Shown: piece after piece, positions 9,568 to 15,996 of the stretch
How the letters are laid out: each line of letters opens with the position of its first letter
How positions within the stretch are numbered: position 1 is the first letter of the stretch
From: an uncultured Ruminococcus sp.
Lineage (GTDB): Bacteria; Bacillota; Clostridia; Oscillospirales; Acutalibacteraceae
Direction of reading: 5' to 3'
NCBI GenBank assembly: GCA_902794395.1
Contig: CADBHB010000020.1
Coordinates: forward strand, 1 to 58,984
DNA length: 58,984 nucleotides
Notes under the pieces: generated by a model
The model's input: only the letters and a program-made list of their open reading frames with translations
What the model was told of the DNA's origin: nothing
Database searches by the model: none
Position numbers and translations under genes: made by a program

Positions 9568-9921
9568 ATGCAGATACTTTTAGCGTTTATTACAGGCGGC
9601 GTGATCTGCGCCGCGGGACAAGTGCTGATAGATAAAACCGACCTCACGCCTGCCAGGATTTTGACGGGCTTCGTGGTGGCGGGGCTGGTGCTGGGCGCTG
9701 TGGGGCTTTATCAGCCACTGCTCGACTTCGCGCAGGAGGGCGCCGCCGTGCCGATCTCGGGCTTCGGCAACCTTATGGCGCAGGGCGTCCGCGATTCGCT
9801 CAAAACCGACGGCGCCGCCGGTATTTTGACAGGCGGGCTGAAAAGCGCCGCAGTAGGCATAGGAACCGCGATATTCTTCTCGCTGTGCGCCGCTTTGGTC
9901 GCAAGATCGCGGGAAAAATAG
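9568..9921 (+). CDS. spoVAE: Stage V sporulation protein AE (SpoVAE/SpoVAEb family)
   Basis: Small integral membrane protein of 117 residues belonging to the SpoVA channel that moves dipicolinic acid into the forespore and out during germination. Family features: N-terminal FITGGVICAAGQVLIDKT, a second hydrophobic segment (GFVVAGLVLGAVGLYQPL), the conserved AAVPISGFGN loop and a C-terminal helix (VGIGTAIFFSLCAALV). AAGGAGG at 9556-9562 sits 5 bases before ATG 9568, so the longer open frame from 9370 is rejected. The usual spoVAC and spoVAD partners are absent here; the gene stands alone between a dockerin protein and metG. No clear sigma-G promoter was recognised. Confidence 0.88.
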   Translation: MQILLAFITGGVICAAGQVLIDKTDLTPARILTGFVVAGLVLGAVGLYQPLLDFAQEGAAVPISGFGNLMAQGVRDSLKTDGAAGILTGGLKSAAVGIGTAIFFSLCAALVARSREK

Positions 9922-9956
9922 CCTCGGATCAGCAGCGTGCCGCCCTTATTTTAGTC

Positions 9957-9985
9957 TTGAAAAGACAGCCGAAATTTGCTATAAT
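9957..9985 (+). promoter_or_regulatory. Sigma-A promoter of metG-tatD
   Basis: TTGAAA at 9957-9962, 17-base spacer, TATAAT at 9980-9985; near-consensus, 47 bases before the metG start. The -10 box lies in the centre of a long inverted repeat. Confidence 0.85.
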
Positions 9986-10009
9986 AAAAGATAGGCAAAT
10001 TTTGGCTGT
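9965..10009. promoter_or_regulatory. 15-bp inverted repeat straddling the metG -10 box
   Basis: ACAGCCGAAATTTGC (9965-9979) and GCAAATTTTGGCTGT (9995-10009) are complementary at 14 of 15 positions, with a G-T pair at the remaining one. The 15-base gap holds the TATAAT box. It could be a repressor operator or, as RNA, a terminator-like hairpin for spoVAE. Confidence 0.75.
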
Positions 10010-10031
10010 TTTAGCTTTAGGAGGACAATAT

Positions 10032-12005
10032 ATGTGTGAGAAAAAACCGTATTACATCACTACTGCGATCGCCTATACCTCGCGCAAGCCGCATATCGGC
10101 AATAGCTATGAGATCGTTTTGACCGACGCCATCGCGCGTTATAAGAGAATGTTGGGTTATGACGTGTTTTTCCAGACAGGCACCGACGAACACGGACAGA
10201 AGATCGAGATGTACGCGCAGGCAGAGGGCTGCACACCGAAGGAATATGTTGACAAGGTGGCGGGTGAGATCCGCGCGATCTGCGACGTGCTGAACACCTC
10301 TTACGACTACTTTATCCGCACCACCGACGAAAAGCACGAAAAGGTGGTACAGAAGATATTTAAAAAGCTATATGAGCAGGGCGACATTTACAAGGGCAGC
10401 TATGAGGGTCTGTACTGCACCCCCTGCGAAAGCTTCTGGACCGAGAGCCAGCTTGTGGACGGCAAGTGCCCCGACTGCGGCAGAGAGGTAAAGCCCATGA
10501 AGGAGGAGGCGTATTTCCTGCGCCTGTCCAAGTATCAGAAGCAGCTTGAGGAGTACATTGAGAGCCATCCCGACTTTATCTACCCCGAAAGCCGCAAAAA
10601 AGAGATGCTCAACAACTTTATTAAGCCCGGTCTGCAGGACCTCTGCGTGTCGCGCACCAGCTTCAAGTGGGGCATCCCCGTTGACTTTGACGACAAGCAC
10701 GTGGTCTATGTGTGGATAGACGCGCTGTCAAACTATATCACCTCTATCGGCTACGACCCCGACGGAAGCAGTGAGATGTACAAAAAGTTCTGGCCTGCCG
10801 ACGCGCATATCATCGGCAAGGACATTGTGCGCTTCCACACCATATACTGGCCCATCATGCTGATGGCGCTGGGCGAGCCTCTGCCCAAGCAGGTGTACGG
10901 TCACCCGTGGATGCTGTTCGGCGAGGATAAAATGAGCAAGAGCCGCGGCAACGTTATCTACGCCGACGAGCTTGTGGAGCTGATAGGCGTGGACGCGGTG
11001 CGGTACTATCTGCTAAGCGAGATGCCCTTTGCAAACGACGGCTCCATCACCTATGAAACCATAGTAGAGCGCTTTAACTCGGACCTGGCGAACACGCTGG
11101 GCAACCTTGTTAACCGCACCATCGCCATGAACAACAAATACTTCGGCGGCACGGTGCAGGAGCCCGTGGCGACAGAGCCGCTCGACGAGGAGCTCAGGCA
11201 GTTCTGCCTTGACACCGTGAAAAAGGTAGACGACGCTATCAATATTTTCCACATCGCCGACGCGGTGGACGCGGTGATGAACCTTGCCAAGCGCTGCAAC
11301 AAGTACATTGACGAAACAGCGCCGTGGGTGCTGGCAAAATCCGACGAAACCAAGCCCCGCCTAGGCACTGTGCTGTACAACCTGCTTGAGAGCATCCGCT
11401 ATATCGCGGTATTATTGCAGCCCTTCATGCCCGACACACACAAGGCTATTTTAGAGCAGATTAACTGTGACATCACCGCTTACGACAGCCTGAGCAGCTT
11501 CGGCGCTTACAAGCCCGGCACTCAGCTCAGCGCGCCCACTCCCCTGTTTGTGCGCATCGACCCTAAAAAATTTGAGGAGGAGATAGCCGCCAGACAGAAG
11601 GCTGCCGCCGAAAGCGAAAAGACTATTGAGGAGATAGAGGAGGAGGAAGCCCTCAATTACGAGAGCATCCCCAAGATCGGCATAGACGATTTTGCCAAAT
11701 GCGACATCCGCGTAGGCGAGGTAAAAGCCTGCGAAAAGGTGAAAAAGAGCAAAAAGCTTTTGCAGTTCACCATTTTTGACGGCGCGGGAGAGCGCACCAT
11801 CGTAAGCGGCATCGCGAAGTTCTATCAGCCCGAGGAGCTGGTGGGCAAAAAGATTTTGTTCGTGTCGAATCTCAAGCCCGTGAAGCTCTGTGGCATAGAG
11901 AGCAACGGCATGATACTCTCGGCGGTCACCGGCGAGGGAGAAAATGAGCAGCTTCAGGTGATTATGGTGAGCGACACCTTGCCCGCCGGCTGGCAGATAT
12001 GCTAA
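10032..12005 (+). CDS. metG: Methionyl-tRNA synthetase
   Basis: Class I aminoacyl-tRNA synthetase charging tRNA-Met, 657 residues. The HIGH-type motif HIGN is at residues 21-24, a zinc knuckle uses C129-x2-C132 and C146-x2-C149, and KMSKS is at residues 300-304. The anticodon-binding helical domain follows, then a C-terminal EMAP-II/Trbp111-like tRNA-binding domain (about residues 550-657, IDDFAKCDIRVGEV). AGGAGG at 10019-10024 lies 7 bases before ATG 10032; earlier in-frame starts overlapping spoVAE are rejected. The stop overlaps the tatD ATG (ATGCTAA). The leader is too short for a T-box, unlike many Firmicute synthetase genes. Confidence 0.97.
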   Translation: MCEKKPYYITTAIAYTSRKPHIGNSYEIVLTDAIARYKRMLGYDVFFQTGTDEHGQKIEMYAQAEGCTPKEYVDKVAGEIRAICDVLNTSYDYFIRTTDEKHEKVVQKIFKKLYEQGDIYKGSYEGLYCTPCESFWTESQLVDGKCPDCGREVKPMKEEAYFLRLSKYQKQLEEYIESHPDFIYPESRKKEMLNNFIKPGLQDLCVSRTSFKWGIPVDFDDKHVVYVWIDALSNYITSIGYDPDGSSEMYKKFWPADAHIIGKDIVRFHTIYWPIMLMALGEPLPKQVYGHPWMLFGEDKMSKSRGNVIYADELVELIGVDAVRYYLLSEMPFANDGSITYETIVERFNSDLANTLGNLVNRTIAMNNKYFGGTVQEPVATEPLDEELRQFCLDTVKKVDDAINIFHIADAVDAVMNLAKRCNKYIDETAPWVLAKSDETKPRLGTVLYNLLESIRYIAVLLQPFMPDTHKAILEQINCDITAYDSLSSFGAYKPGTQLSAPTPLFVRIDPKKFEEEIAARQKAAAESEKTIEEIEEEEALNYESIPKIGIDDFAKCDIRVGEVKACEKVKKSKKLLQFTIFDGAGERTIVSGIAKFYQPEELVGKKILFVSNLKPVKLCGIESNGMILSAVTGEGENEQLQVIMVSDTLPAGWQIC

Positions 12006-12803: not shown

Positions 12804-12840
12804 CGGCTCAGAACACCTAATGTGTTCCGAGCCGTTTTTT
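12804..12840. terminator. Bidirectional terminator (tatD / radical SAM gene)
   Basis: CGGCTC (12804-12809) pairs with GAGCCG (12829-12834), and GAACAC (12811-12816) with GTGTTC (12822-12827), around a CTAAT loop. A6 precedes and T6 follows, serving two converging genes. Confidence 0.9.
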
Positions 12841-14215
12841 ATTCATCGTCATCCGAATACTCGTCCATATCCGGAGCATCATCATTGTCAAGGCGTTTTT
12901 TCAACGCGTATTCAAGGTATCTCTCCTTGGTAAACTTGCAGTGAAGCGAGGGATTTTTACACTGTGTGAAGGTCGTGCAGACCGGCAGCGAAAGACAACC
13001 CTTGCATTTTTCGGCGGTTTTCTCAATGTTTGAAAAGCTCTTGACCGCGGCGGCATTGGTAACGCCCTCAAAAACGGTGCCGATGCTCTCAAAGGAATCG
13101 ACGTTCTCACAATTATAAAGCTTGCCGTCGGGAGCTATAGTGACCGCCTTGTGCGGCGCCTCAGCCATGCAGTGGCGAAGCTTGAGGCTTCGGGTGTTGC
13201 CGTGAGGCGCTCCGGAAAACTCGGTTGTGTCGATGTAATAAAGCAGATCGAAAAGCTTTTCCCAGACGACGACTCCCTCTTCGCGGTTCTGAACATCAAA
13301 AAGAGGCACCAGATCAAAAACTATCCTGTCCGGCTGAGAGATAAACGGTCTGATGTCGTCGATCATCTCCTTGACGCCGTCCGCGTTCTTTTCGTCGATA
13401 TTGACGCGTATGCAGAGGAAAATACCCTTATCGTTTATCAGCTTGATCCTGCCGAGCACATGCCAATAGGCGGATTCGTAATTGAAATAGTAATTCTTGC
13501 GGCGGTTGTACTCCTCTTCTACACCGTCAAGCGTGATCTGCAAGTGATCGACGTTCCAGCGGTTGACCATCTTGTCGGCTATCTCAGAGGTGACAAGGCT
13601 GCCGTTGGTGACTATGACGGAACTGAAATCTATACCGGCTGCTCTTACGGCATCGGTGATTTTATCGATGGTTTTTTCTCCGATCAAAGGTTCTCCGCCA
13701 AACCAGGTCAGCTTGATTTTCTCGTTAGGAGCCGCGTTATTTAGAATAAAGCGTATGGTTTGATCGACGATGTCCTCGGTCATGGTGATGTATTTGGTGC
13801 CCTGCTCAAAGCAATATACACAGCGCGCGTTGCACGTGGTAGTCGGAAGGATAATAAAAGACTTGTAGCCCTTTGTCTGTACCCTGTCTTTTGTGATGCG
13901 CATTATCCTTAAAAGTGTTTCATAATCCTTCCACTCAAGCTTGCTTTCGGGAACAAGGAAGGCATCCGCCAACAGGACGGTCAAATTCTTGTCGGCTGCT
14001 ATCTCGTCACATGAAAAACGCGCGTCGCGGTCAACCGTGATGCCGTTTTCTTCTATCTCATAACAGCGTTTGTTTAGATTATTGAATATATAATTCTTTC
14101 CCTCGTGCTTGAACGGAAAAGCAAAGTCCGACCAGCGATATTTTTTTTCGGGAGAGACCTTTTGGGTACCCATCAGTTTTCTTACTAAAGAGTCACCCGC
14201 AAATGTCAGCTTCAT
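12839..14215 (-). CDS. Radical SAM/SPASM peptide maturase (RiPP-modifying)
   Basis: A 458-residue radical SAM enzyme. An N-terminal region (about residues 25-110, with FKHEGKNYIFNNLNKRCYEI) looks like the peptide-handling or recognition segment of RiPP maturases. The radical SAM barrel has C128-x3-C132-x2-C135 (CNARCVYC) and the SAM-binding WFGGEPL near residue 171. The SPASM region carries C349, C369, C404, C407, C413, C419 and C426, enough for two auxiliary [4Fe-4S] clusters. The tail is strongly acidic (DNDDAPDMDEYSDDDE). GAGGG about 8 bases upstream supports ATG 14215. A 35-residue cysteine-containing peptide gene lies immediately upstream on the same strand, separated by a terminator hairpin. 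By family knowledge it should install thioether or C-C crosslinks; the product is unknown. Confidence 0.9.
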   Translation of the reverse strand: MKLTFAGDSLVRKLMGTQKVSPEKKYRWSDFAFPFKHEGKNYIFNNLNKRCYEIEENGITVDRDARFSCDEIAADKNLTVLLADAFLVPESKLEWKDYETLLRIMRITKDRVQTKGYKSFIILPTTTCNARCVYCFEQGTKYITMTEDIVDQTIRFILNNAAPNEKIKLTWFGGEPLIGEKTIDKITDAVRAAGIDFSSVIVTNGSLVTSEIADKMVNRWNVDHLQITLDGVEEEYNRRKNYYFNYESAYWHVLGRIKLINDKGIFLCIRVNIDEKNADGVKEMIDDIRPFISQPDRIVFDLVPLFDVQNREEGVVVWEKLFDLLYYIDTTEFSGAPHGNTRSLKLRHCMAEAPHKAVTIAPDGKLYNCENVDSFESIGTVFEGVTNAAAVKSFSNIEKTAEKCKGCLSLPVCTTFTQCKNPSLHCKFTKERYLEYALKKRLDNDDAPDMDEYSDDDE

Positions 14216-14285
14216 GTTTTTCACCCTCTTTTCAGTGTCATTAATATAATACACTATTACGGGGGAAAAAGCAAGTTTGAATAAC

Positions 14286-14317
14286 AAAAAAAGCTGCTGT
14301 GCGTAAAGCACAGCAGC
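14286..14317 (-). terminator. Terminator/attenuator between RiPP precursor and maturase
   Basis: Perfect 10-bp stem (GCTGCTGTGC at 14293-14302 with GCACAGCAGC at 14308-14317), 5-base loop, followed on the minus strand by seven U (A7 at 14286-14292). It lies 22 bases after the peptide stop and would limit read-through to the maturase gene. Confidence 0.92.
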
Positions 14318-14339
14318 CTCTTTTGATGTAATAGTCTGA

Positions 14340-14447
14340 TTACCATACGAAATCGCAATCAAAACCGTCACACTCTTCGTCAGAAGTCAGAACAACGTCC
14401 TCAACCTCCAGCTCGATAGCCTCGATCATAGCCTTTGTATATTTCAC
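14340..14447 (-). CDS. Predicted RiPP precursor peptide, 35 residues
   Basis: Short open frame starting at GTG 14447 with a strong AAGGAGG (14456-14462) 8 bases away. The first ~23 residues are an acidic amphipathic leader-like stretch (AIELEVEDVVLTSD), and the C-terminus EECDGFDCDFVW carries C26, C31 and W35. C26 and D30 form a C-x3-D arrangement, the acceptor spacing known from some ranthipeptides. A near-consensus promoter lies upstream and a terminator downstream, and the next gene on the strand is a radical SAM/SPASM maturase. Together these make a real, highly transcribed peptide gene likely. No transporter or protease gene accompanies it. Which residues are crosslinked, and whether the leader is removed, cannot be told. 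Confidence 0.82.
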   Translation of the reverse strand: MKYTKAMIEAIELEVEDVVLTSDEECDGFDCDFVW

Positions 14448-14478
14448 AATTCGCACCTCCTTGTTTAGTGATGAATTT

Positions 14479-14507
14479 ATTATACATTATTCTATAATAA
14501 ATTGCAA
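14479..14507 (-). promoter_or_regulatory. Sigma-A promoter of the RiPP precursor
   Basis: Minus strand: TTGCAA (14502-14507), 17-base spacer, TATAAT (14479-14484), 31 bases before the GTG start. It sits just past the stop of the upstream cohesin-like gene. Confidence 0.85.
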
Positions 14508-14523
14508 GTCTAAAACACTAACC

Positions 14524-15996
14524 TTACGCAGCAAAGTATACTTTTGCAGCCTGGCTATACTCATACATTGCTCTACTAATGGTATCGGTGTTGTCAGCAG
14601 CGAGTCTGGCGTTGAGATACTTGTAGATGCAAACTTTGTAAGTCTTGTTGTTGCTGAACTGTACGGTATGAACGCTGTCCATATCCTTAGCAGCAATGTC
14701 GGAAACCTTAAGAAGAACGAGTCTCTTTCCGCCCATCTTAGCTCCGGTGTCTACAAACTCAGCGGCCTGACCGTCGATAGTAGCGGAAGCATTGGCGAAC
14801 TTGGTTTCGTCAGTGACCTTGTAATAAAGGTTGATAGCATTCTGCTGACCGAGCTCTGCACCGTCTCTGTACAGGCTGAGACCGAGATCGGAAACAGTGG
14901 GATGAGAAGCGCTTACGCCTGCGGGAACATCGATGCTGCTCATGGGAGCCAGAGTGCTGTCAATGTTCTTGTTAGCGAGGTTGTCAGTGAACTTGTTGGT
15001 GTACAGCTGGCTGTATCCGCCGTAGTTAAGAAGCGCCTTGAAGAGGTTGTTCTTGTTCTGGTCGGTGGAAGTAGCCAGAGAATCCAGGATAACTTCCTCG
15101 AGAGTCAGGCTTCTGGTAGCGAGAACTTCGTTGCCCTGCTTAACGGTGATAGTTACGGGCTGGGTCAGATAGGAAGCCATCAGGAAGTAGGTGCGATAAC
15201 GAACGGAAACGCCGTTGACCTTACCTGCAGCGGGGATCTTGGTGTACTGAACAGTGCCGTCCTCGGAATCATCGGGACCGTCGAAGGTAACAGACAGGCT
15301 GCTGGCTGTGTAACCAGCGGGAGCGCTGCGGAACATGAACTGGAAGCCAACCTTACCCTTGAGGTTTGCGCCGACAATATAAAGGAAATCATCCATGTTG
15401 TCGTCAGCCTCGGGATAAACAGCAGCAGTAGAAGCAGCGGTCATAGCAGCGTCATCGTCGAGAACGCCGTCCGAAACGAAGATAACGTCTCTGGCGGAGG
15501 AAGTACCAAGCTGGGCAGTACCTCTGAGGGTATCTACAGCAAGATTAACAGTGGTGTCACCGGAACCGATAACATCAAATACAACTGTCATGAAAACAGC
15601 GCCTTGGGAGAAATCAAAACCGGTCTGGAAGTCAGAAGCCACGAAGGGGATTCTGCCGTCGGTCTTGGTCAGGTTTACGGCGAGAGTGCTGTTAAGGTTG
15701 GGGCAAACGGTAGCAGCAGTCTGACCCGCATGAATTGCAAGAACGTTCTTGTCATAGGTCATAACGCCCTGTGCGTTGATGATGGGGGTCGCTGTAGTCA
15801 GGTTGTAGGTAACAGTAACGGTCTCGGTAGTACCGGGGGTGTACTCGATGGTGCCCGCCGCTGTACCTAAGTTGGATGTGTAGGTAACGGTGTTTGTCTC
15901 CGCAGCGCTTGCAGTGCTAATGCCGAGTACGGATACCATACCGACGATCATCAGCAGAGAAAGCAGAACGGAAACGGTTCTTTTCATTGCTCTCAT
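14524..15996 (-). CDS. Secreted cohesin-like domain protein with unassigned C-terminal region
   Basis: A 490-residue exported protein. The signal peptide (VSVLLSLLMIVGMVSVLG, cleavage after ASA) is followed by a beta-rich domain at about residues 32-180 with cohesin-like signatures: TVTVTYNLTTATPIINAQGV, YDKNVLAI, and a late VFMTVVFDVIGSGDTTVNL strand. The remaining ~290 residues, starting DDFLYIVGANLKGKVGFQFMF and ending ISRAMYEYSQAAKVYFAA, match no domain I can name. No dockerin, sortase motif or membrane anchor is visible. GAGGAG (16005-16010) 8 bases away supports ATG 15996. Codon use is visibly biased and the promoter is strong, suggesting high expression. It could receive dockerin proteins such as the amylase, but binding is inference. 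Confidence 0.78.
   Translation of the reverse strand: MRAMKRTVSVLLSLLMIVGMVSVLGISTASAAETNTVTYTSNLGTAAGTIEYTPGTTETVTVTYNLTTATPIINAQGVMTYDKNVLAIHAGQTAATVCPNLNSTLAVNLTKTDGRIPFVASDFQTGFDFSQGAVFMTVVFDVIGSGDTTVNLAVDTLRGTAQLGTSSARDVIFVSDGVLDDDAAMTAASTAAVYPEADDNMDDFLYIVGANLKGKVGFQFMFRSAPAGYTASSLSVTFDGPDDSEDGTVQYTKIPAAGKVNGVSVRYRTYFLMASYLTQPVTITVKQGNEVLATRSLTLEEVILDSLATSTDQNKNNLFKALLNYGGYSQLYTNKFTDNLANKNIDSTLAPMSSIDVPAGVSASHPTVSDLGLSLYRDGAELGQQNAINLYYKVTDETKFANASATIDGQAAEFVDTGAKMGGKRLVLLKVSDIAAKDMDSVHTVQFSNNKTYKVCIYKYLNARLAADNTDTISRAMYEYSQAAKVYFAA

Follow-up and report, generated by a model that had tools for sequence, protein, structure and literature searches.

The ranthipeptide PapA (freyrasin) is matured by the SPASM enzyme PapB and carries repeated Cys-Xn-Asp/Glu units in its core, given as CX3D in the part of the source used here (PMC9413430). 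An NxxC ranthipeptide has two residues between its linked pair, Asn20 and Cys23, in the excerpt of another report (PMC8326336). For lasso peptides of Bacillota, a leader motif YxxPxL with a Thr near the leader end is described in the available portion of PMC10368454. The locus studied here lies in a window of 58,984 nucleotides (the whole stretch of DNA that was analysed) from an uncultured Ruminococcus sp. and has the anatomy of a ranthipeptide locus, that is, a radical SAM/SPASM maturase gene beside the gene of a Cys-containing precursor. Judged from its sequence, the locus is a real, conserved RiPP cassette of radical SAM/SPASM type that carries no name so far. No published account of this cassette was found among the titles and abstract openings of the open-licence literature.

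Layout and distribution of the cassette

All parts of the cassette are on the minus strand, which an earlier sequence-only reading of this DNA had left unstated. In the direction of transcription the secreted-protein gene is followed by a promoter-like site, a ribosome site, the peptide gene, a terminator hairpin and the maturase gene.

14524..15996, minus strand: gene of a secreted cohesin-like protein, 490 aa, with a signal-peptide-like start (by eye), directly upstream of the peptide gene
14533..15048, minus strand: CTD, the C-terminal domain of the protein above, about 172 aa; it goes together with leader peptides throughout the genus
14479..14507, minus strand: promoter-like site TTGCAA-17-TATAAT, 5' of the peptide gene, 10 of 12 positions matching
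14456..14462, minus strand: strong ribosome binding site AAGGAGG, 5' of the GTG peptide gene
14340..14447, minus strand: precursor peptide gene, GTG start, 35 codons for 35 residues; leader at residues 1-22 (ending EDVVLTS), core at residues 23-35, DEECDGFDCDFVW
14286..14317, minus strand: intrinsic terminator hairpin and T run between the peptide and maturase genes, 10 pairs, 7 of them G-C
12839..14215, minus strand: radical SAM/SPASM maturase gene, 458 aa
12797..12841, minus strand: hairpin resembling a terminator where the maturase gene ends, 20-pair stem

The anatomy proposed before (coordinates, GTG-started gene of 35 codons, ribosome site, SPASM maturase with seven C-terminal Cys) is present throughout, as are the acidic leader-like half and the two-Cys, one-Trp end claimed for the peptide. 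This peptide, VKYTKAMIEAIELEVEDVVLTSDEECDGFDCDFVW with its start codon read as Met, is acidic and contains two Cys and a single, terminal Trp. The border between leader and core is drawn from conservation and would fall at residue 22/23. Among the 18 precursors of the family the leader is conserved and the core variable. The leader codons look constrained, with a pN/pS of 0.32 for 16 leaders compared in 120 pairs (G379, cut by a contig end, and G415, with an extra codon, were left out).

The ribosome site is kept as GGAGGTG at the same position in all 17 precursors with readable upstream DNA. A hairpin followed by a T run starts 42-54 nt past the peptide stop codon in 17/17 loci (G379, at a contig end, was left out of the 18). 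Its stability is -18 to -28 kcal/mol, and in each of the 17 loci 0/100 shuffles are equally stable. Such a terminator between peptide and maturase would yield precursor in excess of enzyme. The promoter had been called strong. The site is there with its 10/12 matches, but the match alone proves little, because the scan gives 7 promoter-like sites where shuffled sequence gives 4.3 +/- 2.2. On inspection by eye, G392, G405 and G401 have similar upstream sites, and most other relatives have no evident one.

Maturase matches at E<=1e-15 occur in 27 of the 161 genus genomes. Close homologues are present in 18 (own genome included), at 43-60% identity in the other 17, two of which are split over frames, while the remaining matches (nine further genomes and second copies) are at 26-40%. 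A family sample of 300 genomes has the maturase at E<=1e-30 in three, again including our own. The sequence-only reading had named in advance a peptide not conserved beside maturase homologues as evidence against its proposal. This is not what is seen: every one of the 18 genomes that carry a close maturase homologue also has a homologous precursor (in G379 it is truncated at a contig end), and it adjoins the maturase in 16 of them. In G403 and G415 the maturase lies well inside another contig, and the precursor and the secreted gene stay between OGG and TatD, the ancestral site. G401 has the three cassette genes together in a different genomic context. A profile of the 18 precursors matches those 18 genomes at E<=6e-10, and its matches in 26 further genomes are all weak, at 1e-6 to 0.01. 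Such a profile necessarily recovers the members it was built from, but the lack of strong matches elsewhere is not built in.

On an OGG tree of 15 of the 18 cassette genomes (without G401, G413 and G441) and 27 others, the holders form approximately one clade, with 2 changes over 42 rows. Because the holders are practically a single clade, their co-occurrence would count as about one origin and not as 18 events, possibly with one joint loss of the cassette in G364. A chance figure of 1/C(161,18) was set aside on the same ground. Elsewhere in the window, the methionyl-tRNA synthetase (9885-12005, plus strand) has same-site relatives of bimodal identity, about 57-58% or 86-90%, the pattern that an in-place exchange of two enzyme types would give.

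The secreted protein and its C-terminal domain

The locus had been described as stand-alone, with nothing else typical nearby. It is true that the cassette contains no exporter or protease gene, but the linked secreted-protein gene directly upstream had been overlooked. Homologues of this protein at E<1e-30 are present in the same 18/161 genomes as the maturase. The peptide directly follows the secreted-protein gene in 17/18 (the contig of G379 stops there), also in the two genomes with the maturase elsewhere, so the locus does not stand alone. The homologues are nearly full-length in 16/18 genomes; of the 491 query positions, that of G381 covers 1-411 and that of G379 1-199 (contig end). The next match, at E 2e-23, covers the cohesin-like part only. 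Against Cohesin PF00963 the window protein scores 23.5 bits, just under the cut-off of 24.1. Eight cohesin-like loci from cassette-free genomes, seven beside OGG and one elsewhere, all lack the CTD, and no leader peptide is seen in these eight, one of which is shortened by a contig end. In G452, TatD directly adjoins OGG.

The pairwise distances of the maturase correlate with those of the secreted protein, with a Spearman coefficient of 0.56 (136 pairs), or 0.73 as a partial coefficient given HydF (66 pairs). The correlations of the two proteins with HydF itself are lower (0.41 and 0.32), and those with OGG or DUF6062 are 0.10-0.24. This comparison covers 17 of the 18 genomes (without G379), with split genes represented by their top BLAST piece only. 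The secreted-protein gene belongs to the cassette and is its third member.

The CTD stretch of the window protein has no Pfam or NCBIfam match above cut-off, and the same holds for the CTDs of two other scanned proteins. The best match of a CTD profile among solved structures is to a designed protein (E 0.0041). The N-terminal parts of CTD proteins differ; the two scanned contain a beta-helix with PI-PLC (L129) and leucine-rich repeats (L227, own genome). Following the weak matches of the precursor profile led to 20 further loci, and in 18 of these a CTD gene is found directly upstream of the peptide. The exceptions are L124, which ends at a contig edge, and L134, which has no CTD gene. The CTD is cut short in L131 and is not at the very end of the protein in L138, and the peptide of L139 was detected by the profile and missed by the pattern search. 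Most peptides of these 20 loci are Cys-free.

A CTD profile of 21 rows matches 90/161 genus genomes. Directly downstream of the CTD gene, a small ORF with the leader motif is found in 41/70 loci, and 29/70 have no peptide by the pattern used. The pairing is 31/56 when the 10 cassette loci (all positive) and four loci with unreadable downstream DNA (L161 and L170, contig ends; L184 and L186, open frame past the stretch) are taken out. The peptide starts 0-73 nt past the first base of the CTD stop codon, with one reading from 55 nt before it. As background, such a peptide ORF follows 6/491 non-CTD ORFs of at least 150 aa in the longer fetched loci, and these six are four precursors in radical SAM clusters and two PqqD genes. 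In the same loci, a set partly chosen for peptides, 38/44 CTD genes have a peptide. The pattern is strict: it missed locus L192 of our own genome, which a looser pattern found (as L285), and four further rows of the looser reading (L276, L279, L280 and L288) hold a peptide by eye. A draw of 250 genomes from the family has the CTD in 15. Of 29 loci read, 12 contain a peptide by pattern; among the 24 of these from other genera the number is 7 (seven genera), or 11 by eye. In G176, rich in CTD-like domains, no peptide was found in the five loci read.

At some of the loci there are also genes for radical SAM, PqqD, HPr-kinase-like, peptidase-like, nucleotidyltransferase or ABC proteins (several named by eye). 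In the one fused protein scanned, the peptidase part reaches 16.4 of 23.3 bits, under the Pfam cut-off, and the nucleotidyltransferase part 138.4 bits, well over it. We tentatively consider that the window system might be one branch of an undescribed system in which the CTD of a secreted protein is partnered, in several genera, by a dedicated downstream RiPP peptide. This peptide, modified by radical SAM or by PqqD/peptidase/nucleotidyltransferase enzymes, would decorate, anchor or regulate the protein, an idea about which we keep considerable doubt. The core differs by locus, and therefore each CTD protein would have its own peptide under this reading. If the association between leader peptide and CTD is functional, RiPPs here would be tied to surface proteins, beyond antibiotics or signals. 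The CTD-peptide module is regarded as a more novel lead than the cassette itself.

Several other features were seen in these loci. L227:641-5676 and L229:2184-7570 (own genome, C7 and C21) have a CTD protein, a leader peptide, PqqD and a peptidase-like/NTP_transf_5 fusion in one gene run, which makes them candidates for a trans-acting maturation set. At L227:3538-3915, L058:6705-7478, L130:7262-8147 and L067:4330-4959, small proteins of secreted or dockerin-like type have ELPFVP, ELPIIP or NELPEIEA tails. These tails resemble several leader peptides (DDELPFIPN), and both could possibly carry a shared C-terminal signal. The Cys-free cores of L147, L148, L151 and L152 contain YEGWNP (once YEGWKP) twice, as if the core had been duplicated. 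The leader peptide at L134:5185-5316 (G344 C16), the locus without an upstream CTD gene, has a CDEDGMTCDFDLGDV core and lies near a contig end. A paralogous locus, L054:8105-9979 (own genome, C21), contains a PqqD gene, a radical SAM maturase gene broken into two overlapping frames and, downstream, a peptide ending GDDPCYIGH; the peptides of its relatives L055 and L056 end GGDPCWVCYM or GGDPCYVCYM.

Maturase, core pattern and proposed mechanism

The maturase matches Radical_SAM PF04055 with 52.1 bits (cut-off 29.5). Its score against SPASM PF13186, 15.3 bits, is below the Pfam cut-off of 21.5, and it is assigned to the SPASM type because of seven invariant C-terminal Cys (349, 369, 404, 407, 413, 419 and 426). 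These residues and the CxxxCxxC motif (C128, C132 and C135) are invariant in 15/15 aligned orthologues (of the 18, G378 and the frame-split G376 and G377 were left out). The nearest solved structure is 5wgg, which we take to be CteB, at E 1.7e-18. The models of TIGR04463, Clo7bot, CefB, FlmE/OhkG, geopeptide and PapB match 15/15 orthologues at E<=1e-20. The maturase is far below the cut-off of all NCBIfam RiPP models among the best 25 of 68 matching, and the window peptide has 0 NCBIfam matches at E<=1 and 0 Pfam families, in agreement with the earlier statement that the peptide is not recognised as SCIFF, streptide, ruminococcin C or a known sactipeptide. In the N-terminal 120 residues of the maturase, no Pfam family is found in more than one of 12 members. 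A PqqD-like leader-binding domain was considered for this region and rejected, with no likeness found (hhalign probability 0.8%). Our own genome encodes five PqqD proteins. Since the region has neither a Pfam nor a PqqD match, the leader would be recognised either by the N-terminal region in some other way or by a genomic PqqD protein.

Each of the 18 precursors has 1-5 core Cys. An Asp or Glu is found at exactly +3 for 40/55 of these Cys, against 13.8 +/- 3.1 expected from per-core shuffling, a number reached in 0/5000 shuffles. With four close relatives removed (14 cores), the count is 24/38 against 10.6 expected, again in 0/5000 shuffles. The cores are related and not independent, so this test overstates certainty. 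No other offset is comparably enriched: -1 has 22 against 15.5 expected, -3 has 18/55 against 13.9 (not significant), and +4 has 9/55 against 13.1. The sequence-only reading missed this C-x2-D/E pattern of most family cores, which the window core itself (G000, 0/2 Cys) does not have. It is also missing from the cores of G392, G413, G403 and G415, and G405 has it at 1/3 Cys. The window and its two nearest relatives (G000, G392 and G405) share a core pattern C-D/N-(x)-F. By eye, six of the seven Cys in this subgroup are followed by Asp and the seventh by Asn, with Phe at +2 or +3 for 6/7. The C-x2-D/E spacing suggests ranthipeptide-like thioethers from Cys to acid. The crosslink of the window peptide may differ from that of the family, because its own core lacks C-x2-D/E and most Cys of its subgroup have Asp at +1 and Phe at +2/+3. 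The family offers a radical SAM substrate with a clear and testable C-x2-Asp/Glu signature, and the natural switch to another core motif would be useful for understanding how SPASM enzymes choose acceptors.

The reading that we prefer, and find rather probable, is a three-gene RiPP cassette of CTD secreted protein, precursor and maturase, whose thioether-crosslinked product would work together with the CTD. The sequences themselves show the homology of the precursors, their conservation and linkage, the core pattern, the terminator and the CTD-peptide association; for leader recognition, chemistry, cleavage, export and CTD contact we infer the following course. The conserved leader, ending in EDVVLTS, would guide the precursor to the maturase, which, with SAM and with its SPASM clusters, would link the core Cys through thioether bonds. 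The acceptors would most likely be side-chain carbons of nearby Asp/Glu at the C-x2-D/E spacing, as in ranthipeptides. In the window subgroup the acceptor would be shifted, with Asp(+1) or Phe(+2/+3) as candidates. A protease from outside the cassette would cut the leader off near LTS, and what is left would then act together with the CTD of the neighbouring secreted protein.

As an alternative, the peptide could serve the CTD protein as a small accessory factor, for instance a chaperone or a sorting or regulatory peptide, with the maturase modifying the peptide or the secreted protein to this end and no free natural product being made. Leader peptides of the genus often follow CTD genes at the short distances given above, with Cys-free cores and, within the DNA covered, without a radical SAM gene, all of which fits. 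We still judge this unlikely, as variable cores with kept leaders are the usual RiPP pattern and the PqqD, peptidase-like and nucleotidyltransferase genes of some CTD-peptide loci form a RiPP-type set. That a small ORF lies by chance next to an unrelated radical SAM enzyme is extremely improbable: a homologous peptide accompanies the maturase in every one of its 18 genomes, and the ribosome site and terminator are common to all 17 readable loci, even though small open frames occur often and the SPASM score is low.

The chemistry could also be that of a sactipeptide, in which an otherwise identical cassette would have its maturase join Cys to alpha-carbons instead of to a beta or gamma carbon of Asp/Glu. 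Both kinds of bond are known from radical SAM maturases. The known acceptors listed in the portion of PMC8326336 at hand include Asp, Glu and Phe, and the Phe near most Cys of the window subgroup fits. L130, a related peptide with a Cys-free core, is weakly like the StsA sactipeptide model (13.5 of 42 bits, E 0.054). The +3 acid spacing, however, is closer to the Cys-Xn-Asp/Glu repeats of ranthipeptides, and the maturase scores 96.5 bits with the PapB model against 44.2 with the sactipeptide maturase RumMC. Sactipeptide bonds are for us quite improbable.

Relation to described RiPP systems

The maturase is no member of several described families. It reaches 61.4 of 425 bits for SCIFF (TIGR03974), whose six Cys in about 45 residues are not found here, 44.7 of 350 bits for the CXXX-repeat system (TIGR04115) and 44.2 of 720 bits for the maturase of ruminococcin C-type sactipeptides (NF035951, RumMC). 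The best enzyme models among the best 25 of 68 are TIGR04463 (Cys-rich peptide) with 121 bits and CefB (NF038107, Cys-every-fifth) with 111.4 bits, and their cut-offs of 525 and 600 bits are not reached. For PapB (NF047865) the cut-off is 340 bits, far above the score of the maturase.

A lasso peptide was considered as well. By eye, the leaders of some relatives resemble the YxxPxL motif with Thr near the end, as given in the part of PMC10368454 used here, but the window leader has no Pro. Related clusters hold PqqD, HPr-kinase-like and nucleotidyltransferase genes (named by eye). The reading was rejected, as the transglutaminase-like B2 leader peptidase PF13471 has no match in our own genome; in the genus it matches 18/161 genomes at E<=0.001 and 3/161 over the cut-off.

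The closest likeness in the core is to the ranthipeptides. In the NxxC type, as far as the excerpt of PMC8326336 describes it, the acceptor precedes the Cys, whereas here the acid follows it; the spacing of two residues is common to both. The family resembles PapA/PapB in combining a SPASM maturase with repeated Cys-Xn-Asp/Glu in the core. The CX3D of PapA, in the available part of its source, and the C-x2-D/E found here are near but distinct, and CX3D/E repeats are not a feature of the cores here. A further difference from PapA/PapB is the CTD protein that is linked to the cassette.
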